Below are positions 2-42,889 of a stretch of 42,889 nt of DNA, piece by piece (positions within the stretch are counted from its first letter, which is position 1; every line of letters begins with the position of its first letter). This DNA is from a virus. Location: positions 1-42,889 of the IMG/VR virus record IMGVR_UViG_3300008107_008959; one strand, 5' to 3'. The notes beneath the pieces are model-generated. The model did no database searches, was not told the DNA's origin, and was given only the letters and a program-made list of their open reading frames with translations. Made by a program: the position numbers and the translations under genes.

Positions 2-3000
2 TCTGATACCACTAATGGCGCTCTGGCCGGTGCAATGTACACTTATACTGATAGTGGAAAAGCATTTCAACACATTCATTCTGGTACGCCATTATTTACA
101 ATACTAAGTGGTGGTAATGTTGGTATAGGTTCAACTGCTCCGGCTAATAAGTTACAAGTGGTTGGAGATATAGGATTTAGTGGCGGTACAAGCACCAGAA
201 TGTTGGTGTCTTATACAAATTTAACAGATAATGAAGATTGGTCAAATAGTCCAATAAGCATAAGAGAAAGAGACTTGGTAGGAAATGCTCAATCAGCTGA
301 TAAGTATGGTCCTAATATTAATTTCCACTGGGCAAACAGAGTTTCTAACAGTCTCTGGATGAATTTAAATGGTATATTAAATTGGGGTGACTATAGTGCA
401 TCTGGTATACCAGCTGCGGATGGCATATTTAGACTTGCAAGTTTACAAGCATCAGCAAACATAGGTATTGGTACAACTGCACCAGGTGCATTATTAAATA
501 TTCGTGCTTCTGCGCCAACTAGCGCTGGAACAGTTACAACTGGCACAAATTTGCTAATTGATTCTAATACAAGCAATTATATAACTTTCAGAAATACAGC
601 AGATAATGGAACTTATGCTGGTCTAACATTCTTGGATAACAATACTGGAGGTTACATAGTATTCAGAAATTATACAGGTGATGTTGTAGCTGGATCTGAT
701 AGTATGATATATGGTACATATCAAGACCATATATTCCAAAATGGTTCAAGTGAAACCATTAATGGTAAAACAGAAACCATGCGTATAAAAGGCAATGGTA
801 ACGTTGGTATTGGTACAAATAATCCAACTGCTAAATTACACATTGTTCAAGGTAATTCTGGTGGTGTAGCAGCAATTCTTCTTTCAACTGATGAAAGCAC
901 AATTCAAGGTCCAAGTGCTAATACACAAATCAGAATGGGAAGTAATTTGGTATTAAATGCGTCAAATGTAATGCCTTTTAATGTCAATGGTAGTGAAACA
1001 ATGCGTATTATTAATAATGGCAATGTTGGTATAGGCACAACGAGTCCCGGATATAAATTGCAAGTAAGCGGAACAGCATTAGCTACAACAGTTACAGATG
1101 GGTCTATAAGTTTAAATGGAGGCGATTTGCTATTTGCGGCAGATGGCGGAGGGAATGGTTTCCAATTTGATTACTATAATACAAAAATGTATATAGGTAA
1201 CAATGCTGGAAGTACTTGGTACATGGGAATTCAAGATGACGGTAACGTAGGTATAGGTACAACAAGCCCTAGTGTTAAATTAACTGTATCAGGAGACGTT
1301 ACGGATTCAGATGTCGGTCAATTTAGAGCAGTTGGATCTACTTCAGCAGCTAAAATGATAAATGTTGGATATCATACAACCAATAATTATGGTTTTATAT
1401 CTGCATTAATAGCTGGAACAGGATACTCTGCATTATCTTTGCAGCCTAATGGAGGTAATGTTGGTATAGGAACAACAAGCCCAACCGCTAAATTCCAAGT
1501 TGGTACACATTCTATAGGTGATGCTGGTAATGGAGATAATAGTGCGAATGTAAGAATTGGTGCAGCAAGTGCGGGATCAAGAGTATATGGCATGACATTA
1601 GCCAATACTGCTACAGCTACACTTAGTAATGAATCTGCACTATCTTTTATAGTAGCTGGCAATTATTCAGCAACTGGTATAATAAGTGCAGTATTACGAA
1701 ACACCGGTAACGCAGCAACCGATCTTATCTTTACAAATTACAGTGGTGGTTTACAAGAAAGAATGCGTATTTTATACGATGGTAATGTTGGTATAGGTAC
1801 AAGTAGCCCTAAACAAAAATTAGATGTTAGTGGGGCTGGTGGAAAAATAGCTATTACAAATACAGGTACTACTGATTATTCTGAACTTGTATTTTATGAA
1901 GGTAATTCTGTAAAAGCTGATATTTGGGTAAACGGATCTGCACAAGCAACTTATGCAGGTGTAAATTCAATGAATATCTGGCAAGGTTCTAATGCCCCTA
2001 TAGCATTTTATACCAACGGAACAAATGAAAAAATGCGTATTGCTGCTGATGGTAATGTTGGTATAGGTACAACAAGTCCCACTACAAAATTAGCCGTAAG
2101 TAATGGTACAACTATTGCGCAAGTTAATCCATATGATGGTGTAGCTTATTTTGGTACAGTTAATAGCTACCCGATGGCACTATCAGTAAATAGTAGTGAA
2201 AAAGTTAGAATTACAAATGATGGCAATGTTGGCATAGGTACAACAATTCCCCTTTATAAATTGGATGTAAATGGTTCAGTCAATGCTAATAATATTAGAA
2301 CTACTACTCAAATAGGCGGGACTACCGGTACAATCCAGTCTCTTGTCACTCCGGGCATATATTCAAACGGATCTTCTACTGGAAATGCAATTGCTATAAG
2401 TAGTAATACTACATTTGCAAATCAAGGCGCATGGGCCAATTTAGGATTACATCAAACAACAGCTAATGCAAATGATCTAACAGCAAAAGTTTATCTGGCT
2501 ATTGGAGGATGGTATCAAAATAGCGGAACTGGTCTTCCTGTTTATATCGGAGGTGGATATACATCAAACTCTTCTTCAGTTCTATCGGTAGTTCCTTCTG
2601 ATACGGCTGGAAATGGAAACGTTGGTATAGGTACAACAAGCCCAACACAAAGATTACATGTTTTAATGACAGGTGGAAGTACAACCGCTCCTAACATAGT
2701 TGCAACATTTCAAGCTAATACTGCGACAACAATATTAGCCGGTGGTGGTACAGCAATAAAATTTGTTGGTGTTAGTAGTGGTGGTAATTTACAAAATTAT
2801 GATCAAGGTATGATATCTACCTTGGGATATGCTGATAATAATCGACATGGTATGCAATTTTGGGTAAAACCAAATGCTAGTACCGTTTTAACTGTCGGAC
2901 AAACTATAGATAGTAATGGTAATTTAGGTATTGGTACAACTAGTCCCGCCGCTAAATTACATATAGAAGGTAATGATATAAGACTAAATACTGAAGGAAG

Positions 3001-4351
3001 TTATGCTGAAAAATCTTTGTATTTTAGATATTCAGATAATGCAAAAATAATGTCAGATAGTTATTTGACATTTCTTACAAGCGGCACACCTGCTGAAAGA
3101 ATGCGTATTACCAGTGTTGGTAATGTGGGTATAGGTACAACTACAGTAAGAGGATTGTTACATGTAAGTGGTGATATTATAAGAGATACAAATCTACCAT
3201 ATTCATGGGGTACATCTGCTCCGCACAGAACATTTGCGGGTGCGTATAGTTACGCAAATGGTGGAGTAAATGGTGTGGCTAGATATCTGTTGTTATGGCC
3301 ACAAATTACAAATGTTAACGGACAAAATGGTAGATTTGTAAATGCAAGATTGGTTGTATCCAGAGGAGCAACTCATGCTTATAATGATACTACAATAGGA
3401 GATGTAGTTGCATCCGCTGGATATAATTCTTCAGCAAACGTATATGCTTATACACCAATAGTTGGAGAAAAACTTTATTTTTATAATATCGTATATAATA
3501 GTGTAACTTATTTAGCTATATCATTGCCAATTAGTGATTATCGCTGGGAATTAACTGGACACTATGGTATAGAAGAAATCGCATATTATAGTCCAACATT
3601 CGTATATGCAAATACTAGTGGTGTTGGTACCATAACACAATTAACAGATTATACAAATGAATCTTTAGCAATTTATAATAAAGGTGGCAATATTGGTATT
3701 GGTACAACAAGCCCTTTCGGAACAGCTGCTAATAGAACTGTGCTTTCTGTTAATGGAACTACAGATGTTTCATTAAATATAGGTTCCGGTGGTTCACAAA
3801 GAGCGTATTTATATGGCGTATCATCATATGCTGAATTAGGTACCATTGGTAGTTTGCCTTTAACTTTTGCGCCTAATAATAGTGAAAAAATGCGTCTTAC
3901 TAGTGATGGTAATTTAGGTATAGGTACAACAAGTCCTTCGCAAAAATTAGATGTAAATGGCACAATAAAAGCAACTTCTTATATTGGAGATTTCACTGGA
4001 AGATTAGTTAGAACAAGCACTACTCAAACAATCACAGGAAATAGTGCTTTAACAATAGATGTTGCTGCGGCATATATACATGTCATAACCGTGGCAGCAT
4101 CAGGAGGTATATTTGGAATATCAAGCGTAACATATAATAATAGAAAAGCTAACCCAGAAGTAGATGAAATCATATTGATTTTTAAATGGCCAGCAAGCGG
4201 ATCTGGATCGATAAATATTTCTAATACAATTGGCGACATACCTTTTAACTATGGCAAAGCCACAGTGACTCGTCTGACATCTTACAAAGGAACGTCAGGC
4301 TTTTGGATTGCAGAAACAGTTGCCTCAAATATAGACTATACAAATTTATAA
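2..4351 (+). CDS. Tail fibre / receptor-binding repeat protein (5' partial)
   Basis: The frame is open from the first bases of the window, so the N-terminus lies upstream; 1,449 residues are visible. The chain carries 14 copies of a glycine-rich box of the type GNVGIGTTSP followed by a KLxV/I beta strand. Many copies are preceded by a short E-(K/R)-MRI segment, and the boxes are spaced roughly 60-150 residues apart. This repeat is characteristic of trimeric beta-helical phage tail fibres, so a receptor-binding virion role is likely. Such fibres often end in an S74 intramolecular chaperone. No such domain is seen here: the last ~120 residues form a beta-rich, Ser/Thr-rich tip. The spacers between boxes differ strongly, consistent with modular exchange. 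The gene is followed by the plus-strand gene at 4420 with no clear terminator between them. Confidence 0.85.
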   Translation, partial: SDTTNGALAGAMYTYTDSGKAFQHIHSGTPLFTILSGGNVGIGSTAPANKLQVVGDIGFSGGTSTRMLVSYTNLTDNEDWSNSPISIRERDLVGNAQSADKYGPNINFHWANRVSNSLWMNLNGILNWGDYSASGIPAADGIFRLASLQASANIGIGTTAPGALLNIRASAPTSAGTVTTGTNLLIDSNTSNYITFRNTADNGTYAGLTFLDNNTGGYIVFRNYTGDVVAGSDSMIYGTYQDHIFQNGSSETINGKTETMRIKGNGNVGIGTNNPTAKLHIVQGNSGGVAAILLSTDESTIQGPSANTQIRMGSNLVLNASNVMPFNVNGSETMRIINNGNVGIGTTSPGYKLQVSGTALATTVTDGSISLNGGDLLFAADGGGNGFQFDYYNTKMYIGNNAGSTWYMGIQDDGNVGIGTTSPSVKLTVSGDVTDSDVGQFRAVGSTSAAKMINVGYHTTNNYGFISALIAGTGYSALSLQPNGGNVGIGTTSPTAKFQVGTHSIGDAGNGDNSANVRIGAASAGSRVYGMTLANTATATLSNESALSFIVAGNYSATGIISAVLRNTGNAATDLIFTNYSGGLQERMRILYDGNVGIGTSSPKQKLDVSGAGGKIAITNTGTTDYSELVFYEGNSVKADIWVNGSAQATYAGVNSMNIWQGSNAPIAFYTNGTNEKMRIAADGNVGIGTTSPTTKLAVSNGTTIAQVNPYDGVAYFGTVNSYPMALSVNSSEKVRITNDGNVGIGTTIPLYKLDVNGSVNANNIRTTTQIGGTTGTIQSLVTPGIYSNGSSTGNAIAISSNTTFANQGAWANLGLHQTTANANDLTAKVYLAIGGWYQNSGTGLPVYIGGGYTSNSSSVLSVVPSDTAGNGNVGIGTTSPTQRLHVLMTGGSTTAPNIVATFQANTATTILAGGGTAIKFVGVSSGGNLQNYDQGMISTLGYADNNRHGMQFWVKPNASTVLTVGQTIDSNGNLGIGTTSPAAKLHIEGNDIRLNTEGSYAEKSLYFRYSDNAKIMSDSYLTFLTSGTPAERMRITSVGNVGIGTTTVRGLLHVSGDIIRDTNLPYSWGTSAPHRTFAGAYSYANGGVNGVARYLLLWPQITNVNGQNGRFVNARLVVSRGATHAYNDTTIGDVVASAGYNSSANVYAYTPIVGEKLYFYNIVYNSVTYLAISLPISDYRWELTGHYGIEEIAYYSPTFVYANTSGVGTITQLTDYTNESLAIYNKGGNIGIGTTSPFGTAANRTVLSVNGTTDVSLNIGSGGSQRAYLYGVSSYAELGTIGSLPLTFAPNNSEKMRLTSDGNLGIGTTSPSQKLDVNGTIKATSYIGDFTGRLVRTSTTQTITGNSALTIDVAAAYIHVITVAASGGIFGISSVTYNNRKANPEVDEIILIFKWPASGSGSINISNTIGDIPFNYGKATVTRLTSYKGTSGFWIAETVASNIDYTNL

Positions 4352-5413: not shown

Positions 5414-5749
5414 TTATTTTATAGGAATAACGTTTACTTTTTCTTGCTCTTTTTTAGGAACAGTGATTTTTAAAACTCCATCTTCAAGACAAGCAATAGA
5501 CTCTGAAACTACAGCAGAATTTGGCAACTTATACTCTGCTGAAAACGGAGTCCTCTTGTTTCCTTGCTTTGGAGAAACAGTAACGCAAATAATGTTTCCT
5601 TTGGAAGTAACAGTTACTTCGTTCTTTGAAAAGCCCGGAACATCAAGTTCTAGAATGAATGACGTTTCCGTTTCTTTCCACATGTCTAATGTTAGATAGC
5701 TGTTTAGTTCTTTTTTCAATTGAGCTGGTGTCTTAAGTGTGTAGTACAT
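5414..5749 (-). CDS. Small heat shock protein, Hsp20/alpha-crystallin family
   Basis: A 111-residue protein containing one alpha-crystallin domain (about residues 24-105). An ELDVPGFSKNEVTV segment matches the first strands of the domain, and LEDGVLKITVPKK matches the family hallmark A/G-x-L-x-I/V-x-V-P near the C-terminus. It ends with an I-x-I motif (VIPIK) of the kind that docks into neighbouring subunits. Hsp20 proteins are ATP-independent holdases that oligomerise; T4-like cyanophages carry them, probably to protect proteins during virion assembly. The N-terminal arm is short. It is transcribed toward the gene at 5178, and GTGAG before the start could serve as a weak ribosome-binding site. 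Confidence 0.9.
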   Translation of the reverse strand: MYYTLKTPAQLKKELNSYLTLDMWKETETSFILELDVPGFSKNEVTVTSKGNIICVTVSPKQGNKRTPFSAEYKLPNSAVVSESIACLEDGVLKITVPKKEQEKVNVIPIK

Positions 5750-5779
5750 AGGCGTCTCACTAAAGCAATGACCGTGCCG

Positions 5780-6466
5780 CTATATTTTCTTTAGATTTTC
5801 TAAGCTTTTTCGAAGCTTTTGAGACTTGCTGGGATTTTTTGTCTCACTGATTGTGTCGATGATGAGACGAAATAACTCTTCAACTGAAGCCTTGGAAAAA
5901 TGGCTATTCTCAGGAGCAATAGGGGAGGTGTCTTGCCATTCAATAATAAAGTCCGCAAGCTCTTCTAGCTTAGGGGTGTGGTAAGCTTCTTCGCTATTAA
6001 CTGGAATAGAATAAAACTTTGCATGATTAAAGAGTTCGTGTATTTGATATTTCTTGACATGGATTAAAATTCCTTTATTCTTTTTAATCCAAGCTACCTC
6101 GTCATTTTCGTATTCGGCATGTCGGATATCTGGAATGCAAATTATTCTATCAGTTTTAGCTTTGGGCAAAGCCTTTATTTTTTTATCTAGCTTATTTACC
6201 CAATGGGTGCCTTTAGACTCTTCGCGCTTCACCTTAGCATAAAAAACCAAGAAGTCTCTAATTACAGCCTTCTCTGTTCTTGAGCATGCAACTGGATTTA
6301 TGTTATACATAGACAACAAAGTTTCTCGGCACTCTTCCTTTAGCTCGTCTGCCAAAGCCATGCGCTCAAATTCAAAGCCTTTGCTTTCGAATAACTCTCT
6401 AAGCATATTACATAAAGAGTCTTTGCCGTCTCCTGCTAGTCCTGATATTCCTATGATTTTTTTCAT
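5780..6466 (-). CDS. Deoxynucleoside monophosphate kinase-like P-loop protein
   Basis: A 228-residue protein with an N-terminal Walker A loop (GLAGDGKDS, about residues 9-17) after a beta strand (KKIIGISG). This arrangement is typical of T4 gp1-type dNMP kinases, which phosphorylate dTMP, dGMP and hydroxymethyl-dCMP. A central strand and Arg-rich segment (RIICIPDIRHAEYE) fits the NMP-kinase fold, where IPDvRfxnE is common. The C-terminal ~60 residues are helical and Lys-rich and look like an extension. Its start overlaps the HNH gene stop by 4 bases, so the two are translationally coupled. Placement near dUTPase supports nucleotide metabolism; exact substrate is unknown. Confidence 0.7.
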   Translation of the reverse strand: MKKIIGISGLAGDGKDSLCNMLRELFESKGFEFERMALADELKEECRETLLSMYNINPVACSRTEKAVIRDFLVFYAKVKREESKGTHWVNKLDKKIKALPKAKTDRIICIPDIRHAEYENDEVAWIKKNKGILIHVKKYQIHELFNHAKFYSIPVNSEEAYHTPKLEELADFIIEWQDTSPIAPENSHFSKASVEELFRLIIDTISETKNPSKSQKLRKSLENLKKI

Positions 6467-7074: not shown

Positions 7075-7115
7075 TTAATAATGAAGCATCTTAATGAAAT
7101 AAAGTCAAGATTTTT

Positions 7116-7143
7116 TTGAAATTTTAAAGGCGCTCTTTACAAT
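7116..7143 (+). promoter_or_regulatory. Possible promoter for the 47-residue gene
   Basis: TTGAAA (7116-7121), 16 bases, TACAAT (7138-7143), then 7 bases to the ATG at 7151. It departs from the CATNNT form in the first base but keeps the spacing. The -10 box lies within a perfect inverted repeat, CTCTTTA-CAA-TAAAGAG (7133-7149), which could be an operator or a 5'-end hairpin. Confidence 0.5.
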
Positions 7144-7150
7144 AAAGAGT

Positions 7151-7294
7151 ATGCCAAAGACAAACAAGAATACAAAGAAGAAGCCAGCCCCGAAGGCGGC
7201 AGCTAAGAAGACGCCAACTACCGGATCAGCAGGGTCAGCGGGATCTGCGGGATCTAAGGGTTCGGCTGGATCAGCAGGAAAGACTAAGAAGTGA
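7151..7294 (+). CDS. 47-residue Lys/GSAG-repeat protein
   Basis: A very short gene read directly from the bases: ATG at 7151, TGA at 7292-7294. The first 20 residues are half Lys/Asn with Ala and Pro (like a histone H1 tail). Residues 25-43 are a run of GSAG-type units, and it ends KTKK. It is predicted fully disordered and strongly basic. It has a promoter-like sequence just upstream and a strong intrinsic terminator seven bases downstream, so it is a self-contained transcription unit, which argues that it is real. Possible roles are DNA condensation, a nucleic-acid chaperone or a flexible linker peptide; none is shown. Confidence 0.65.
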   Translation: MPKTNKNTKKKPAPKAAAKKTPTTGSAGSAGSAGSKGSAGSAGKTKK

Positions 7295-7300
7295 AATCAA

Positions 7301-7328
7301 AGGCGCAATAAAATGCGCCTCTTTTTTT
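7301..7328. terminator. Bidirectional intrinsic terminator
   Basis: A perfect 6-bp stem AGGCGC / GCGCCT (7301-7306, 7315-7320) with an 8-base loop is followed by CTTTTTTT on the plus strand. It ends the 47-residue gene. The stop codon of the convergent minus-strand gene at 7327 abuts the T tract. Read the other way, the stem is followed by TTTGATTT, so it can serve both genes. Confidence 0.85.
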
Positions 7329-7527: not shown

Positions 7528-7543
7528 ATAGAAAATATTACAC

Positions 7544-7723
7544 TTAATCTACAGACCTTATATTAAAAATATCTACAGTCACCAAAGTCTCGCCGTTAGA
7601 AACAAGAAAAGTGTCCTCGTCTTTAACGTCTACAACTTCACCAACCCATTCGAAATCGCTATCTAAGATCTTAATTGTTTTTCCAATCAGTCTTCTATTA
7701 GCTTGAATTTTTGCGTCGTTCAT
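7544..7723 (-). CDS. Small beta-rich protein, unknown
   Basis: A 59-residue protein found by reading the minus strand between larger genes. After an N-terminal helix (about residues 1-14) come alternating strands: GKTIKILDSDFEWVGEVVDVKDEDTFLVSNGETLVTVDIFNIRSVD. This pattern fits a small SH3-like or KOW-like barrel, but that is inference from strand spacing only. It sits between the 66- and 53-residue genes on the same strand, and TAAAAAAATTAAAC precedes the ATG with no clear ribosome-binding site. Confidence 0.55.
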   Translation of the reverse strand: MNDAKIQANRRLIGKTIKILDSDFEWVGEVVDVKDEDTFLVSNGETLVTVDIFNIRSVD

Positions 7724-7741
7724 TTTAGTTTAATTTTTTTA

Positions 7742-7903
7742 TCACTCTTTGTTATTATCCTTCTTGCAGTCACAATCAACTACTGAAGTGTAGCAAAAAT
7801 TAAGAAACTTTTGAAGTTGCTCGCTCTTTATTATCTCCTCAGGATGAGCGGCCAAAAGCTTACAGAATTGAAATACGTCTTTTATTTCAAGCGCTCTTTC
7901 CAT
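7742..7903 (-). CDS. Small Cys-containing helical protein, unknown
   Basis: A 53-residue protein whose ATG lies inside the last codons of the DUF1360-like gene. The overlap is 17 bases, the same as between that gene and dUTPase, so the three genes form a coupled chain. It is helical throughout (KDVFQFCKLLAAHPEEIIKSEQLQKFLNFCYTS). Four cysteines occur, the last two as CDC before a Lys/Asn tail. No family is recognised. Confidence 0.5.
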   Translation of the reverse strand: MERALEIKDVFQFCKLLAAHPEEIIKSEQLQKFLNFCYTSVVDCDCKKDNNKE

Positions 7904-8714: not shown

Positions 8715-9122
8715 ATGACTATATTAGATGCATATCAAAATCTAAACGAATTCTTTAATGAGAACCAAGTCCTGAATCTGCGAAGAGACTTTAGAAAAGT
8801 TGTTTTGGTAACCGATAGAGAAAACGACGATAAGGCTTCGGTTCTTTGTGCTTTGGCAGAGATGGAAAAGTCTGGAATCGTAAAGTCAACCACAATTGAA
8901 AATGAAGTTTATTGGGTTTTATTTAAACCTCTTGAAGCCTTTTCTCAAGATGTGGAGGTTAATTATTTGCTTGCAGCAGGTATCGCAAGTGTAATAAATA
9001 AAGTCTGCGAAGCTCTTAAGAATGATTCTGATAAATGTGATCCAAAAAATATCACGGAAAAAGATCTGAAGAATCTGATATTTATTGCATCTAAGGTCTC
9101 AGAGGAGAATCTTAAGAATTAG
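8715..9122 (+). CDS. Hypothetical helical protein
   Basis: A 135-residue protein with no recognised family. Residues ~25-65 (FRKVVLVTDRENDDKASVLCALAEMEKSGIVKS followed by a strand pair ENEVYWVLFKP) resemble a winged-helix layout: helices followed by a beta hairpin. That would suit a DNA-binding regulator, but no specific match is claimed. The second half is helical and ends in a Lys/Glu-rich segment. It is preceded by its own TTGCCT-N16-CATATT promoter and followed by the structured region before the sigma gene. Confidence 0.6.
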   Translation: MTILDAYQNLNEFFNENQVLNLRRDFRKVVLVTDRENDDKASVLCALAEMEKSGIVKSTTIENEVYWVLFKPLEAFSQDVEVNYLLAAGIASVINKVCEALKNDSDKCDPKNITEKDLKNLIFIASKVSEENLKN

Positions 9123-9342
9123 TTTGACTTTAAAGGAAAACGGTCAATCGTTCTTTGAATAGTTGCGCGGGAGGTAGCTTGAGCAAAACCATGCTCACTT
9201 AAAGATAGCATCTTTATTTAAACTCGTAAGAGACAACAAGCCCGTAAAAAGACTACAGTGGTTGAGAGAAATCTCAGCGTTTGTTCGGGAGAAGCGGCGT
9301 CCTAAAAAGGCCACTGTATAAAACTGCTAGAAACTTATTCCT

Positions 9343-9370
9343 CTCAAATGGAAAAGGCGATGGCTGTGTC
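9343..9370 (+). repeat. Leader repeat, copy 1
   Basis: The segment CTCAAATGGAAAA then GGCGATGGCTGT then GTC. It shares CTCAA-TGGAAAA and the 12-base core GGCGATGGCTGT (9356-9367) with copy 2 about 190 bases downstream. It lies inside the loop of the ACTTATT/AATAAGT helix. In reading frame it would encode a 17-residue peptide starting MEKAMAVS. Confidence 0.65.
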
Positions 9371-9531
9371 AAAAAATAAGTCACCCGCAAAACAACTATA
9401 GAAATAGCAAATCTCAGTTACTAGCTAAACGGACTATCTAAAGCCGGAGATGCGATGACTGATGTAGGTGAGATTTGGTTAAATAAACTGAAATATAAAA
9501 GTTTCAGTTGACCTGCTATTTCTTTAGCCAA

Positions 9532-9563
9532 CTCAATGGAAAATTCAAAGGCGATGGCTGTTT
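9532..9563 (+). repeat. Leader repeat, copy 2
   Basis: CTCAATGGAAAA, a 6-base insertion relative to copy 1, then the identical core GGCGATGGCTGT (9550-9561). An AGCCA at 9526-9530 can pair with TGGCT in the core (9555-9559). The core's 3' end also forms the left arm of the hairpin that covers the sigma gene's ribosome-binding site. In frame it would encode a peptide starting MENSKAMAVS that runs past the sigma start codon out of frame. Confidence 0.65.
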
Positions 9564-9587
9564 CCGAAACACAAAGGAAACACCATG
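9559..9587 (+). promoter_or_regulatory. Hairpin covering the sigma gene ribosome-binding site
   Basis: A perfect 7-bp stem TGTTTCC / GGAAACA (9559-9565, 9576-9582) with a 10-base loop places the Shine-Dalgarno bases AGGA inside the right arm, just before the ATG at 9585. An upstream GGAAA (9538-9542) can pair instead with TTTCC (9561-9565), freeing the ribosome-binding site. The two pairings exclude each other, as in translational riboswitches and RNA thermometers. Confidence 0.6.
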
Positions 9588-10190
9588 GAAAAAGTAAAAA
9601 TTCAACACTCGGAGCTTGACCTTATATCAAAGGTTAAACTGGACAACTGCAACGATAGTTTCGGTGAGCTTTCTAAGCTCTACGACAACTTTTATTACTC
9701 CATCGCCCAAAAATATTCTTCGACCTTAGTAAAGGCTGGGATGAACAAGGACGATATCAAATATGAGAAAGACTTCATTCTTTATAAAGCAGTTAAGTCT
9801 TTCGATGCGAAGCAGAAAACGAAGTTTTCAACTTGGTTCTGTAACTGCGTTAAATATCATTTCTTGAACTATATTAACTCCAACAAGAAGTACATGCTTG
9901 CTGAAGAAAACAAAATAGACTTCTTTAATAACAAGGATATTTTAGTTTCTGTAGATAAGAATAATGATACTTACTCTTACCTGTTATCTCTACTCTCTTC
10001 TTTTAAGGACGAAAGAATCAGGCAGGTTTATGAATTGAGATATTTTTCAGGAGGAGAGAAGCTTGCCACTTGGAATTCTATAGCCAAAAAGCTTGGAGTT
10101 AGCACTCAGACAGCTATAAACTTGCACGAAAAGACAAGATCTTTTTTAAAAAATAAAGTCCAGAGCAAAAATTCTTGTGATTTTGTTTGA
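9585..10190 (+). CDS. Sigma-70 family sigma factor (T4 gp55-like role)
   Basis: A 201-residue protein. Residues ~25-105 match sigma region 2: a YDNFYYSIAQKYSS helix, then LYKAVKSFDAKQKTKFSTWFCNCVKYHFLNYI, which fits the region 2.3-2.4 pattern of FD-(x)n-KFSTWxxxxVxxxxxxxI used in -10 melting and recognition. Residues ~140-195 match region 4, with a helix-turn-helix (WNSIAKKLGVSTQTAINLHEKTRSFL) for -35 binding. Regions 1.1 and 3 are missing or minimal, as in alternative and phage sigma factors. It probably redirects host RNA polymerase to a class of phage promoters. AAAGGA 10 bases before ATG is a good ribosome-binding site but is buried in a hairpin. The long structured leader suggests its synthesis is tightly controlled. 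Confidence 0.85.
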   Translation: MEKVKIQHSELDLISKVKLDNCNDSFGELSKLYDNFYYSIAQKYSSTLVKAGMNKDDIKYEKDFILYKAVKSFDAKQKTKFSTWFCNCVKYHFLNYINSNKKYMLAEENKIDFFNNKDILVSVDKNNDTYSYLLSLLSSFKDERIRQVYELRYFSGGEKLATWNSIAKKLGVSTQTAINLHEKTRSFLKNKVQSKNSCDFV

Positions 10191-12086: not shown

Positions 12087-14060
12087 ATGACTAAAACTCT
12101 CTCTAAGGACTTCGTAAATAAATATAAAAACAAACAACCAAACTGGGGCTTCAATGGCTTAGGATATATCGTATACAAGAGAACATACGCTCGTCTTAAG
12201 GAAGATGGAAATACCGAAGAGTGGTTCGAAACGGTAGAGCGTTGCGTAAATGGCGCTCAGAAAATTGGAGCCGGTTATACAGAAGAGGAAGCCGAAAGAA
12301 TTTATGATTATGTTTTTAATCTTAAATGCAACTTTGCTGGCAGAATGCTTTGGCAGCTTGGCACTTCTACAGTAGACCGCTTCGGAGCAAATTCTCTTCT
12401 CAATTGCTGGGCTGTTGCAATGAGAGAGCCTAATGCATTTTTGTTCTTGTTTGAGAACTTGATGCTTGGAGGAGGAGTTGGATACAGCATTCGTCGAGAA
12501 GACGTCCATGAGCTTCCAAAAATTAAGAAAGGTGTAACGATTATTCATGAAGGAGTTAAAGACGCTGACTACATTGTTCCTGATAAACGCGAAGGTTGGG
12601 TTAATCTACTTTCGAAGGTGTTGGACGCTTTTTACGTCACAGGTAAATCATTTTCGTATTCGACTATTCTCATCAGAGGATACGGTGAGCCAATCAAGGG
12701 CTTTGGCGGAAAAGCTTCTGGCCCACAAATCCTTATTGACGGAATCGATAAGATCACAAAACTCTTTCAGTCGAGAGAAGGTAAAAAACTTCGTTCAATT
12801 GACGTTCTTGATATCTGTAACATTATTGGTAGTGTTGTTGTTGCTGGCAACGTTAGAAGGTCTGCTGAGATAGCTCTTGGAGATCCTGACGATATCCTTT
12901 ATCTCCGTGCTAAGAACTGGGGGACCGGGAATGTTCCCAACTGGAGAGCAATGAGCAATAACACTATCTATGCTGATAGTTATGATCATGTTCTTGAAGA
13001 GATCTGGAAGAATGGGTACGAAATAAATCCAGATAGCGGCTATGCCAACGGAGAGCCTTATGGCTTCTTCAACTTGCCATTGTCTCAAAAGTTTGGCCGC
13101 ATTAAGGATGGCCCGATCTCAGACAACGCAATGTATCCAACAAGTGCTGATGATTGCGAAATGACAAACCCATGCGCCGAGATCAGCCTTTCAAATTACG
13201 AGTGCTGCAATCTGTGCGAACTTTATCTTAACAACATTGAAAGCAAAGAAGAGCTTATCGACTGCTCTCAATTGCTTTATAAGACTCAAAAGGCTATAGC
13301 CTCTCTTCCGTTCATCCATGAGCAAACTAATAAGATCGTCCACAAGAATATGCGTCTTGGCCTTGGTGTTACTGGCGTTTGTCAGTCTCTACATAAGCTT
13401 GCTTGGCTTGATGATTGTTATGTTGCTTTGCGCGCTTTTGATAGGTCTTGGAGCAAGCTTCGTGGATGGCCTGAAAGTATTAAGCTCACGACTATTAAGC
13501 CTTCTGGCACACTAAGCCTTCTTGGCGGCGCAACCCCCGGAGTTCACCCAGCGTTTAGCGAGTATTACATGCGCACAGTTCGCATGTCTAGTTCTGATGG
13601 TCTAGTTCAAATCTGCAAGGATATGGGCTACCACGTTGAGTTCCTTGTTAATTTTGATGGAACTGAAAACCGAGACACTGTAGTTGTTTATTTCCCATGC
13701 AAGACTCCTGAAGGATCTATTCTTGCTAAGGATATGGATGTATTGAAGCAGCTTGATATGGTTAAGAAGCTTCAAACTGACTGGTCTGATAATGCAGTTT
13801 CTGTTACTGCTTACTATAAGCCTGAAGAGCTTGATTCTTTAAAGACTTGGCTAAAGGACAACTATGAGCATAATGTTAAGAGCGTTAGCTTCTTGTTGTT
13901 TAAGAATCACGGCTTCAAGCAAGCTCCATATCAAGAGATCGACGAAGAGACCTATTCTAGCGCAATAGCTAAAGTTAAGAATCTCTCTGCAATGTCCATT
14001 AACAGTTCAGAAATGCTAGACATGGCGGAGTGCTCTACGGGGGCTTGCCCAATTCGCTAA
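12087..14060 (+). CDS. nrdJ: Class II (adenosylcobalamin-dependent) ribonucleotide reductase
   Basis: A 657-residue protein. I chose the ATG at 12087 because the longer reading to 12012 adds residues lying in the previous gene. It matches the monomeric RTPR type (Lactobacillus leichmannii): LMLGGGVGYSIRRED near residue 130, VVVAGNVRRSAEIALGDPDD near 250, and the active-site set NPCAEIS-x5-CC with N361, C363 (thiyl), E365 and C374, plus C107 in NSLLNC. These have the same spacing as N406/C408/E410/C419/C119 of RTPR. The tail CSTGAC (C649, C654) is the shuttle pair that re-reduces the active site. It makes deoxynucleotides from ribonucleoside triphosphates without oxygen or a second subunit. 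It is about 80 residues shorter than RTPR. Confidence 0.9.
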   Translation: MTKTLSKDFVNKYKNKQPNWGFNGLGYIVYKRTYARLKEDGNTEEWFETVERCVNGAQKIGAGYTEEEAERIYDYVFNLKCNFAGRMLWQLGTSTVDRFGANSLLNCWAVAMREPNAFLFLFENLMLGGGVGYSIRREDVHELPKIKKGVTIIHEGVKDADYIVPDKREGWVNLLSKVLDAFYVTGKSFSYSTILIRGYGEPIKGFGGKASGPQILIDGIDKITKLFQSREGKKLRSIDVLDICNIIGSVVVAGNVRRSAEIALGDPDDILYLRAKNWGTGNVPNWRAMSNNTIYADSYDHVLEEIWKNGYEINPDSGYANGEPYGFFNLPLSQKFGRIKDGPISDNAMYPTSADDCEMTNPCAEISLSNYECCNLCELYLNNIESKEELIDCSQLLYKTQKAIASLPFIHEQTNKIVHKNMRLGLGVTGVCQSLHKLAWLDDCYVALRAFDRSWSKLRGWPESIKLTTIKPSGTLSLLGGATPGVHPAFSEYYMRTVRMSSSDGLVQICKDMGYHVEFLVNFDGTENRDTVVVYFPCKTPEGSILAKDMDVLKQLDMVKKLQTDWSDNAVSVTAYYKPEELDSLKTWLKDNYEHNVKSVSFLLFKNHGFKQAPYQEIDEETYSSAIAKVKNLSAMSINSSEMLDMAECSTGACPIR

Positions 14061-39911: not shown

Positions 39912-40181
39912 TTACCACTTTCCTGCTGGACAGCTTTCAAAATCTAATTTTACTTTAATAGTAACAAAGCATCCACACAGTTCGCATCTGCCGCTTTGCT
40001 TGCAAAGCTTTGGGCATTTGTTGCAAATAGATAACCTCTTTTCCGCGCTATCCGGATTAGAGGTTATTTTTTCATTATTTATTATTGCTGAAGCGGCTTT
40101 CTTTGATGAAGAGACAAGGCTATTTTTAATTTTTAAACCTTCCTTCATTAAACTGGAAAACGAAAGATCGTTTTGACTCAT
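39912..40181 (-). CDS. Small Cys-rich (zinc-knuckle) protein
   Basis: An 89-residue protein. The first ~45 residues are helical and Ser/Lys-rich. The C-terminal part carries ICNKCPKLCKQSGRCELCGCFVTIKVKLDFESCPAGKW: cysteines spaced C-x2-C-x3-C-x5-C-x2-C-x-C, then CP-x-G-KW. This zinc-binding motif is common in short proteins beside structural genes of T4-like and related phages. Its role there is unclear. It overlaps the stop of the upstream structural gene by 4 bases, so it is probably expressed with it. Confidence 0.75.
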   Translation of the reverse strand: MSQNDLSFSSLMKEGLKIKNSLVSSSKKAASAIINNEKITSNPDSAEKRLSICNKCPKLCKQSGRCELCGCFVTIKVKLDFESCPAGKW

Positions 40182-42889
40182 ATCTTAATTGTACTAGGAT
40201 AGAAGTTAGAATATCTAAAATCTAATGTAGTGCTAGAAGAAGTTCCGCAAGTTTCAGAGCAAAAAACCTGATATGTATTTTTTATTCCATTTGGCAAAGC
40301 CAAAGCTGAAGCTGTTCCACTAGCAGACTCAGACAATCTTCCTCCTGTATAAAATCTAAAATTCCTTGTTTGAGTTGGCACATCTATTGGAACATTTGTA
40401 TTTGCTGGTATGGCTCTTGGATAAGCGTCTCCGAAAACTCCATTGCAACTAATAAATCCCACCCCGCCCTCTTGATATGGCTCGTAAGAAGAGCAAGAGT
40501 AAGTCAATTTTGTTTCTATTGCTAAGAATTTTTTCTTTAGACTTCTAACAAAGGATGCTGGCAAAGCTTTTTCCATCCAAGGGTGTACAAAAGGATTGAA
40601 TGACATAGAATCTGAATACTCTGTAGATCTAATATAAACTCCTTGCCCACCGGTTACTTTTTGAGGGATATCCTGATTCTTTAAGTCTACTCTATTTACT
40701 GATCTACCAGCTGATACTCCAATGATAGAATTAACTGGTAAATAATAGCTATATTTGCCAGGAGAAGAAACCTTATCTCCACCTGTGCTAAAATTAATAA
40801 TCTTGTTTTTATCTGGCTCTTCATCTTTTAGGTAGTATTCATTAAATTGCCTTTCAAAATCAATCGCCCAAACCATTGGGAGAATGACTCTTGCTTCATT
40901 TAGATTATTTATTCCATCTACCAATCTGTTGAAAAAGCTATTGGCTCTTGGTAACATGTTCGGAAGAGTTCCGTAAGCTGGCGCTCCATCAGCCCTCGAC
41001 TCAAGAGGCAGCAACGTTAACCAAGGAGGCGCAGCGGCAGTGTCATAGATTGAGATTGCAGCGCTCGCATCTGTATAAACGTCTAGATTGCTCAAAGAGA
41101 AGGTTTGACCGCTCTTGGTAGTAGATATGAAATTTTCATTTAATACCGTTGCGTCAGATCCCTCTATTATTGATGATGAGCTGTTTACCGAGCTAGGAAC
41201 GCTAGAGTCTTCAATCTCTGGCGTGGCAGCGTCAGTATCTTCATTATATATAGAAACGTTTTCTAATGGATTGTTGTATTTATCTGCGTAGAGCTTAGAA
41301 ATTTGATACCAAAATGGATCAAGTTTAAGCATTGATGTCTCATCTTCTGGATTTATATTAGTGTTTATATAAGTTGATGCTGATCCAGAGTTGGCGTTTG
41401 TTTGTTCGGCGGCATTTTGCTGAGCTATATTATTTCTTGATAAGTAATCTTGTAGCACTTTAGCTTCTTGATCGTCTAGCGCGGCATCATTAGATCCAAC
41501 TTGATTTAATGGCTTGCCGCCGTATAGAGAAGCTTTTAGTTTGCTAAATGAGCTATTGATTGGTTTTAAAAACTCAGGAATATCGGTTCTTTTTGTTGAT
41601 ACAATCTTATATGAAGATTTTATAATTGGAGTTAGATCGCTAAATGTTTGAATCCTTTTATCTGATTCGGTTTTAAACATTGAGTACCCATAGCCAGGAT
41701 CAATGATTTTAATTCCTGATATCTTTCCATATTCATTTAATACAACCTCTGCTTTTGCAGGCTTACCATTAGAATCTATATTAGGATCAGGAAGCTGAAC
41801 CTTTGGAGCAATCAAAAACACTTCATCAGGCTTAACTGGCAAATCAATGTAAGTTATTGTGCCTTCTCTAATTGGATCTGTGTAGAAAGCTTTTGATTCA
41901 GAAGTTAATTTATATAATGTTTTAAGTGTTTGAGTTATTGTGGCTGAGCCTTGATTATCTATAGCCAAATAAGTCATTCCTTCTATTTTATCGAACTCTT
42001 TAAACCCCCTATCTGGCAATCTGATTCCTCTCAAAGCGTAATCATCTAAGTTAAAAGAAATTGTATTATCAGCCGCATTTCTTGATGTTGATCCTATAAA
42101 CTCATCATAAACAAGATAATTCCAAGTAGGAGGCAGCAGCATCTTATCGAAAGAATATTCAACTGATCTATACGCAGTAGTGCAAGTTACATTGTGCTTT
42201 TCTATTTGTATTTTAAGATTTGCTGTTTTATTATCTAGGTTAGAGATTTTATCAAATAGATTTAAATAAGCTTGATTTACAGACGATCTCTTGAGCCTCA
42301 AAACAAATTTATCTTCATCTATATTATAGTTTTCATTGTTTCCAAGCTTTAATGATGTAGCACTTAGAATAGTTCTGTAAACTGACCCATCATAGTATTG
42401 TACCGATACTTGTAAATCTGTTGTTAAAACACTAGCAGTAGCATTAAAAAGACTATAGTTATAAAAATCTTCTACTATTTTCCAAAACAAGATAACATCA
42501 GTAGTTAGCCCGCTTTGGTCTTTAATTATATTAATGCATGGCAAGATTTCTGACACGCAAGCTGGATAAACGAATCCTTTATAGTTGTTAGATATAGAAT
42601 TCTTTGGAGTTGCTTCGTACTGGAATCCAGTAAAATATTCTCCACCTACAAATAGATTTACAATGAACTCTTGATCGGATGTCTTACCTTTGAATTTATC
42701 AAAATCTGAAAACAAGTGAGCAAAAGAGTGCTCGATCTTCTCGGTTGTTGAGCCTCTAACTGCCGTTATATTTTCTGCTTGTTTGTAAGTTTCTGAAATT
42801 TTTGCTTTTATTTCGTATCTTAATGCTGCTGGCTGCTTTTGATTTATTGTTAGATCTGGAACTGTGCCGCTTGGGTTCGCTACTCCTTC
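40178..42889 (-). CDS. Large structural-type protein (5' partial)
   Basis: The minus-strand frame is open to the last base of the window, so the N-terminus lies outside; 903 residues are visible. A TTG at 42715 is not the true start. The chain is Ser/Thr/Asn/Tyr-rich, has few charged clusters and no catalytic motif. It contains beta-rich stretches at both ends, and a low-complexity acidic and Ser-rich middle (about residues 480-600 of the visible part, with repeated Asn/Ser/Ala). The final ~120 residues hold several Cys. This is typical of a baseplate, tail or other virion protein. The Cys-rich protein behind it supports a structural operon. Confidence 0.65.
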   Translation of the reverse strand, partial: EGVANPSGTVPDLTINQKQPAALRYEIKAKISETYKQAENITAVRGSTTEKIEHSFAHLFSDFDKFKGKTSDQEFIVNLFVGGEYFTGFQYEATPKNSISNNYKGFVYPACVSEILPCINIIKDQSGLTTDVILFWKIVEDFYNYSLFNATASVLTTDLQVSVQYYDGSVYRTILSATSLKLGNNENYNIDEDKFVLRLKRSSVNQAYLNLFDKISNLDNKTANLKIQIEKHNVTCTTAYRSVEYSFDKMLLPPTWNYLVYDEFIGSTSRNAADNTISFNLDDYALRGIRLPDRGFKEFDKIEGMTYLAIDNQGSATITQTLKTLYKLTSESKAFYTDPIREGTITYIDLPVKPDEVFLIAPKVQLPDPNIDSNGKPAKAEVVLNEYGKISGIKIIDPGYGYSMFKTESDKRIQTFSDLTPIIKSSYKIVSTKRTDIPEFLKPINSSFSKLKASLYGGKPLNQVGSNDAALDDQEAKVLQDYLSRNNIAQQNAAEQTNANSGSASTYINTNINPEDETSMLKLDPFWYQISKLYADKYNNPLENVSIYNEDTDAATPEIEDSSVPSSVNSSSSIIEGSDATVLNENFISTTKSGQTFSLSNLDVYTDASAAISIYDTAAAPPWLTLLPLESRADGAPAYGTLPNMLPRANSFFNRLVDGINNLNEARVILPMVWAIDFERQFNEYYLKDEEPDKNKIINFSTGGDKVSSPGKYSYYLPVNSIIGVSAGRSVNRVDLKNQDIPQKVTGGQGVYIRSTEYSDSMSFNPFVHPWMEKALPASFVRSLKKKFLAIETKLTYSCSSYEPYQEGGVGFISCNGVFGDAYPRAIPANTNVPIDVPTQTRNFRFYTGGRLSESASGTASALALPNGIKNTYQVFCSETCGTSSSTTLDFRYSNFYPSTIKI

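Follow-up and report, generated by a model that had tools for sequence, protein, structure and literature searches.

The window analyzed here is a 42,889-nt stretch of viral DNA (positions 1 to 42,889 of IMG/VR record IMGVR_UViG_3300008107_008959). In it, a 462-nt segment separates a gene for a 135-aa protein (g135) from a sigma-factor gene (Table 1). A sequence-only reading had described this segment as a gene-free, highly structured RNA. Indeed, positions 9123-9584 hold no ORF of at least 60 aa, and the gap is the largest among the main ORFs (a set hand-picked from the ORF list), the runners-up being 359 nt (7528-7886) and 252 nt (7075-7326) long among the listed ORFs. The g135 protein has no Pfam or PHROG family. 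Its predicted element order is HHH-EE-HHH (AlphaFold2 model, pLDDT 92.6), which may by our reading be winged-helix-like. Elsewhere in the window, a 1438-aa protein (35-4351) is without Pfam match and an 845-aa protein (40178-42715, minus strand) without PHROG or Pfam match.

Table 1. Positions of genes, RNA elements and candidate signals in the window.
Feature	Position	Strand	Remarks
g135, 135-aa gene	8715-9122	+	upstream of the RNA
TTGACT, candidate -35 box	9124-9129	+	end of g135
Type A structured RNA	9155-9570 (ends approximate)	+	found at 34 loci (iterated nhmmer)
Module 1 of type A	9217-9338	+	alignment A7
Pseudoknot strand CCCG	9241-9244	+	pairs with CGGG 9286-9289
Helix strand TACAGTGG	9254-9261	+	pairs with CCACTGTA 9311-9318 (+); helix 2 of A7
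GAAA-capped hairpin TGAGA(GAAA)TCTCA	9263-9276	+	helix 3 of A7
Helix GCGTT 9277-9281 / GGCGT 9296-9300	9277-9300	+	helix 4 of A7
Pseudoknot strand CGGG	9286-9289	+	pairs with CCCG 9241-9244
Twin unit copy 1, AAAGGCGATGGCTGT	9353-9367	+	repeat scan
Module 2 of type A	9374-9530	+	alignment A8
Module 2 first helix AGTCA/TGACT	9379-9383/9456-9460	+	5 pairs counted
Module 2 outer nested helix	9400-9408/9515-9523	+	7 pairs counted
Module 2 middle nested helix	9409-9416/9469-9476	+	4 pairs counted
Module 2 innermost hairpin	9486-9493/9502-9509	+	left out of pair counts
Twin unit copy 2, AAAGGCGATGGCTGT	9547-9561	+	repeat scan
Sigma-factor gene	9585-10190	+	Pfam Sigma70_r2 and PHROG 351

Every helix named in the sequence-only reading was located in the window. 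The nested set is made of an outer stem (AGAAATAGCA at 9400 with TGCTATTTCT at 9514), a middle stem (CAAATCTCA at 9408 with TGAGATTTG at 9469) and an innermost hairpin (AACTGAAA at 9486 with TTTCAGTT at 9502). A separate helix (TACAGTGG at 9254 with CCACTGTA at 9311) stands over the GAAA-capped hairpin (TGAGAGAAATCTCA at 9263). Perfect inverted repeats of at least 8 bp within 150 nt number four in the window, against a shuffle mean of 0.78; four were reached in 3 of 200 dinucleotide shuffles. As that reading anticipated, the plus strand of the gap also folds better than 100 of 100 shuffled sequences (-127.7 kcal/mol, z -4.5). The corresponding z value of the minus strand is -2.5, with 1 of 100 shuffles as good.

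Conserved structure of the type A RNA

Searches with the sigma protein and the 135-aa protein returned few relatives, one of which (L011) has the same RNA, here called type A, followed by two genes before sigma. Alignment of the downstream glycosyltransferase led to a large group of uncultivated phages, and the best 80 of 373 relatives were examined. Iterated nhmmer combined with a pattern scan yielded 34 type A loci, the window included, representing 28 distinct RNAs. RNAs were counted as distinct below 97% identity; near-copies of the window and of L017 (L016 and L018), as well as other duplicates, were excluded beforehand.

A covariance model of module 1 (R1) supports five further, divergent members. 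One of them, L032, a weak member outside the 34, was found by R1 itself, with an E-value of 0.001 (5.7e-5 in its record alone). The other four were first picked by pattern scans and then confirmed by R1, at E 4e-10 for L118, which lies on a 161-kb contig, and 6e-10 to 3e-7 for L174, L175 and L179; these values are flattered because the loci had been pre-selected by pattern. Helices outside the search pattern also pair in these four RNAs. In the last pattern scan, R1 supported three of eight new loci. Three pattern matches in bacterial or archaeal genomes were set aside as being without R1 support.

No cultured relatives were detected by blastn with positions 8715-10190 of the window, and blastn of three RNAs against cultured phages gave only 20-37-base matches (E of at least 0.5). 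At blastn sensitivity, no cultured phage carries the type A RNA. In tblastn searches for cultured relatives, the glycosyltransferase and the sigma protein each gave one weak record (26% identity, E 2e-6, and 26%, E 2e-3, respectively); the DNA polymerase gave 1316 distant matches.

The helices of module 1 covary. In alignment A7 (28 sequences, 20 pairs including the pseudoknot), 95.1% of cells are paired and 15 pairs show two-sided change; two-sided cells amount to 97, against 29.5 in shuffles and no more than 26 with a slid structure. Both the GAAA-capped hairpin and its enclosing helix, which the sequence-only reading had singled out, are among the covarying elements. All five pairs of the hairpin have two-sided changes (94.9% of cells paired), as do all six pairs of the enclosing helix, where the 88.7% of cells paired includes a 3' strand misaligned in the window and its closest relatives. 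Helix 4 is 99.3% paired, with two-sided change in three of five pairs. The pseudoknot pairs in 99.1% of cells and its CCCG/CGGG strands are near-invariant in A7, with one pair undergoing two-sided change in one sequence; it reads UCCG/CGGA in L011 and, from the sequences, ACCG/CGGU in L174, L175 and L179.

For module 2, alignment A8 (27 sequences, 16 pairs) has 87.9% of cells paired versus 77.7% in shuffles, and two-sided cells number 38 versus 12.6 in shuffles and at most 18 when slid; eight pairs have two-sided change, with as many in 38 of 500 shuffles. The nested set holds in part across relatives: the outer stem only partly (seven pairs, 80% of cells paired, two with two-sided change), the middle stem better (four inner pairs, 89%, three with two-sided change). 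Altogether, type A has a conserved secondary structure with a pseudoknot, and the covariation in homologues that had been proposed as a check is present beyond shuffled and slid controls.

Folding energy is less telling. The 28 type A RNAs, each compared with 30 shuffles, have a median z of -1.4, with two positive values, and the window is an outlier among type A members. Because of this, it is covariation, and not energy, that we take as strong evidence. Bases of the long terminal stem in the predicted fold look promoter-like in many relatives, so that this stem may be spurious.

A conserved reading frame, which the sequence-only reading had named as evidence against an RNA, was not found: no frame is common to the 28 type A RNAs, whose longest stop-free stretches differ, from 30 to 78 codons on the plus strand and from 36 to 112 on the minus strand. 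A hidden gene in the region was rejected on this ground. A short ORF that, by eye, could start in the first unit copy of the window (ATG GCT GTG ...) was also dropped, its ATG being missing in many relatives.

Gene order and a second RNA at the same place

The type A loci lie on viral contigs with phage genes. In the 32 type A loci with downstream room, the next gene encodes a kinase (21 loci), sigma (six), another product (four) or tRNA-Gly (one; in L060 the tRNA starts at the end of the RNA match). Sigma is also next in L032. The next gene or tRNA lies on the same strand in 32 of 32 loci, mostly less than 50 nt away, and the same downstream block is found in most loci. On the other side, 25 of the 32 loci with upstream room have g135 as the adjoining gene, on the same strand; six have a further gene in between (L047 also has a tmRNA there), and in L115 g135 was not found. 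None of 12 neighbouring gene families is present in the 4-14 kb around L118, L174, L175 and L179. The kinase gene adjoins g135 in 13 loci (several are near-copies), leaving no space for an RNA, which is therefore dispensable there.

Two genes were observed near divergent members. The L118 contig has a translation initiation factor IF-3 gene at 13336-13860 (Pfam IF3_C, IF3_N). In L174, on a contig otherwise different from other type A loci, the RNA is followed by a 224-aa ORF (2155-2829, minus strand) with, by eye, a helix-turn-helix like that of sigma region 4.

These data bear on the role first suggested for the RNA, namely, that of a riboswitch-like leader controlling the sigma gene. In the window, the structured RNA does lie directly ahead of that gene. 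However, sigma comes next in only six of 32 loci, there is no constant downstream gene, and the divergent members sit among other genes. Nor does any Rfam riboswitch match: the only one in the permissive Rfam listing, SAM-II, scores 14.6 bits against a threshold of 44. The sigma leader was rejected on gene order, which also largely refutes a ligand-sensing riboswitch for sigma, a reading to which we give hardly any credence. Since the downstream gene varies and the 12 neighbour families are absent around four divergent members, type A is not tied to the sigma gene.

Where a relative lacks type A, the corresponding place is often a gap of about 430-470 nt, or longer, that holds a different conserved RNA. 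This RNA (type B) is about 400 nt long and was identified at 33 loci, 28 of them distinct, with a profile and a second pattern scan. Neighbours were mapped for 23 of these loci: in 20, g135 immediately precedes the RNA; an opposite-strand gene intervenes in L087, and in L044 and L075 the RNA is elsewhere nearby, ahead of another gene. Alignment A9 (28 sequences, 26 pairs) has 93.5% of cells paired, 19 of 26 pairs with two-sided change and 157 two-sided cells; shuffles give 54.2 such cells and slid structures no more than 24. In both RNA types, therefore, two-sided changes go beyond the shuffled and slid controls, which is what we required of a structured RNA; the exceptions are the two-sided pairs of A8 (above) and the "further pair types" of A9, with 173 of 500 shuffles as high.

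Several observations indicate how the two RNAs are distributed. The nhmmer profiles hit 34 loci for type A and 23 for type B, with no locus in common. The type B model (R2) matched 0 of 33 type A records, a set outside which the window's own record lies; in that record, the type B nhmmer profile found no match. R1 and R2 were also run on 50 of 71 other related records: R2 matched 19, none of which was matched by R1, and 30 had neither type, many being fragments and one (G060) giving a marginal type A match (E 0.007). No record among those searched carries both RNAs. In a quick tree of 82 glycosyltransferases, A and B interleave, with 10 label changes for A and 14 for B, at least four of each being forced by starred branches. 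Labels for L032, L066, L068 and L070 were assigned by hand on this tree; R2 bears out L066 and L068, and L070 was labelled by eye only, against R2. Types A and B are in exchange. Such exchange of unrelated RNAs at one place suggests a common function.

Two further sequences deserve mention. At about 6340-6790 in L070, a stretch resembling a divergent type B RNA was noticed by eye, with TTGACA-N17-TACTAT and two AAGAAATTT...CATAT copies; R2 has no match in this record at E 0.001. In L058, the 135-aa gene is followed by a gap of some 380 nt (5610-6020), which starts with TTGACA and contains, by eye, two TTTTAA(A)GGGAAGT copies. This record matches neither R1 nor R2, and the gap is possibly a third RNA class.

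We considered whether type A could be a long cis-acting leader, exerting antitermination or attenuation on a block of kinase, sigma, DUF736, glycosyltransferase and ribonucleotide reductase genes, whichever comes first. Phage antitermination RNAs, such as put of HK022 and EAR, are structured RNAs found at operon starts, and put sites consist of two similar elements. Type A resembles them in being structured, in its position at an operon start and, as regards put, in having two similar elements (see below). A same-strand next gene mostly within 50 nt is what a leader would show, as is the recurrence of one downstream block. Because every locus with room has a next gene or tRNA on the same strand, a cis role on the following operon keeps some probability. 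In addition, type B has, by eye, a GC-rich hairpin and then a T-rich stretch between its two units. However, type A is much larger than put and EAR, the gene that comes first varies from locus to locus, and four type A members lie among other genes. In type B, moreover, the next ORF (of at least 80 aa) is convergent and abutting in five of 33 loci (L012, L071, L147, L149 and L153), and the RNA precedes another gene in L044 and L075. The convergent neighbours imply that type B, at least, can be free-standing. On these grounds we consider the leader unlikely, and type A quite probably a free-standing RNA. It has the appearance of a genuine RNA device, not of a switch acting on the neighbouring gene.

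Promoter-like sequences and matching units

A free-standing RNA would be expected to have its own start. The TTGACT at the end of g135 is a candidate -35 box; no good -10 box was found in the window itself. TTGAC(A/T/G) recurs at a similar upstream distance in many relatives, and L032 has a perfect TTGACA-N17-TATAAT. A -35-like box is present in 22 of 33 real upstream stretches versus 299 of 660 (45%) shuffled ones, which makes this a weak test of presence. Promoter-like scores of at least 9/12 occur in 12 of 28 type A RNAs (17% of shuffles) and in 15 of 28 type B RNAs (11% of shuffles). These figures amount to a modest indication of putative promoter-like sequences at the type A 5' end.

Close to its 3' end, the type A RNA has a repeated unit, present in the window as two copies of AAAGGCGATGGCTGT. 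An ungapped repeat (score 12-19), with copies 180-242 nt apart, is found near the 3' end in 25 of 28 type A RNAs, the other three being L103, L020 and L105, whose sequence is incomplete. All 25 repeats beat the best of 20 shuffled RNAs, those of L011, L104 and L019 by one point only. Two shorter similar copies are found in type B.

The sequence of the unit varies from phage to phage. Yet within one type A RNA, copies 1 and 2 score 15.1 against each other versus 7.1 between phages (n = 14), and in type B the corresponding values are 12.1 and 6.2 (n = 18); in either case, none of 5000 permutations was as high. Both comparisons are to be read knowing that the copies had been chosen as the best repeat in each RNA, a procedure biased toward own pairs; shuffled RNAs served as control for this bias in type A and none was used in type B. 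Fourteen of the 28 type A RNAs entered the comparison, near-copies, L105, L103 and L020 being excluded, and 24 and then 18 of the 28 type B RNAs, with copies cut out by hand. The two matching units near the 3' end change together between phages.

What the units might pair with was sought in two places. In the own record of the window and of five other phages, complements of the unit were within the range of 30 shuffled units, the best one in G005 equalling the shuffled maximum. No site stood out in these six records, and an antisense target in the phage genome was rejected. Within the RNA, the unit can pair in several members with a CTTATC near 9523, a motif that does not track it in L060 or L110; its permutation fraction is 0.06, with several rows badly cut by the pattern, and it was discarded as internal partner. 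In a scan of 80 alignment windows for an internal partner, the best z, 2.7 at the 5' end, is not significant for 80 tests.

As direct repeats some 180-240 bp apart, the units might instead act at the DNA level, as recombination or replication sites, with the RNA being incidental. Both type A and type B show RNA-type covariation throughout, however, and further copies of the unit core are absent from five of the six scanned records, with one copy in G008. We regard DNA-level repeats as very improbable.

A different role would be that of a decoy for, or inhibitor of, a host defence or regulator, in which the units would mimic a host RNA site and the exchange of A and B would reflect an arms race. 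The units vary between phages and stay matched within one; A, B and neither are patchily spread over the tree; and within the phage genomes themselves (six records) no target was conspicuous, all of which fits such a decoy. But A and B are each fairly conserved, beyond what mimicry alone demands, and we judge it unlikely that the RNA is a decoy.

We favour, as the moderately probable explanation, a free-standing structured phage RNA that probably acts in trans, has an equivalent in type B and carries twin docking sites. According to this explanation, the region would encode a non-coding RNA of about 400-460 nt, probably transcribed from a promoter of its own where the upstream gene ends; that this yields an independent transcript we infer. 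The RNA would probably act during infection, as such or as an RNA-protein particle. Type B, unrelated in sequence and similar in size, would fulfil this role in related phages, for the most part at the same location.

The part played by the twin units is more tentative. Read most simply, they may be two docking sites for one partner (be it a protein of host or phage origin, or an RNA of the host) that changes from one phage lineage to another. A matched pair of units varying by phage should help find this partner once the host is known. More speculatively still, phages could reserve a site in the genome for an RNA machine that can be exchanged. Two structurally unrelated classes, A and B, built on the same plan (a folded body and two matching units), would then substitute for one another at this site, with the units tracking a partner that varies by host; the RNA might, for instance, be a decoy for a regulator or defence system of the host. 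We hold this wider scheme to be rather doubtful.

Comparison with known RNAs

The sequence-only reading could not assign the RNA to a known class, and this stands: no family of Rfam 15, including GOLLD, ROOL and the introns, matches it. At the gathering threshold, no match was obtained for the window, and in nine relatives only tmRNAs and tRNAs were matched. Permissive searches with type A gave chance-like matches or none (three chance-like ones for 9050-9650), and there was no match to the group I and group II intron, RNase P RNA or tmRNA models. For type B, five sequences (L034, L012, L042, L029 and L082) had no match at the gathering threshold, and a permissive search with L028 gave only chance-like matches. 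A search by title and abstract opening, with the subscription literature mostly outside its scope, found no published description of type A among the matches listed.

That reading had also proposed a free-standing phage RNA of the kind represented by GOLLD and ROOL. GOLLD and ROOL are the best-known large structured RNAs in phages, and neither has a known function. According to the consulted passages of PMC12286853, GOLLD is frequently located near tRNAs and in many cases exceeds 800 nt; ROOL has pseudoknots, lacks a known protein partner and was studied as a 659-nt RNA; and both form cages, a homo-oligomeric one in GOLLD. Like GOLLD, type A is encoded by phages, and 10 of its 34 loci have tRNAs no more than 6.5 kb away, one of them abutting (several loci are too short for this to be judged); like ROOL, it is a large phage RNA with a pseudoknot. 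Unlike them, it is only about 450 nt long, hence also shorter than the ROOL RNA studied, and neither it nor type B matches the Rfam model of GOLLD or of ROOL. The proposal is therefore supported as to kind and not as to membership, and the likeness is one of kind, not of sequence. Structured RNAs have also been described in marine phages and cyanophages, the manA and wcaG motifs (PMC2864571); these are in Rfam (RF01745 and RF01761), and type A matches neither.

Types A and B thus add two RNA classes without Rfam 15 match, diverse enough for solid covariation. They also offer two handles that the same passages of PMC12286853 do not mention for GOLLD or ROOL: exchange at one place and, as regards units changing together between phages, a matched unit pair.

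The tmRNAs in L060 and L047 are genes separate from type A. Phage tmRNA genes were seen in four records (L060, 331-731, minus strand; L047, 3690-4106; L048, 13063-13475; and L066, 13918-14325), and all four have long related predicted tags of 21-31 aa that read ...EADEILARFG... or close to it.
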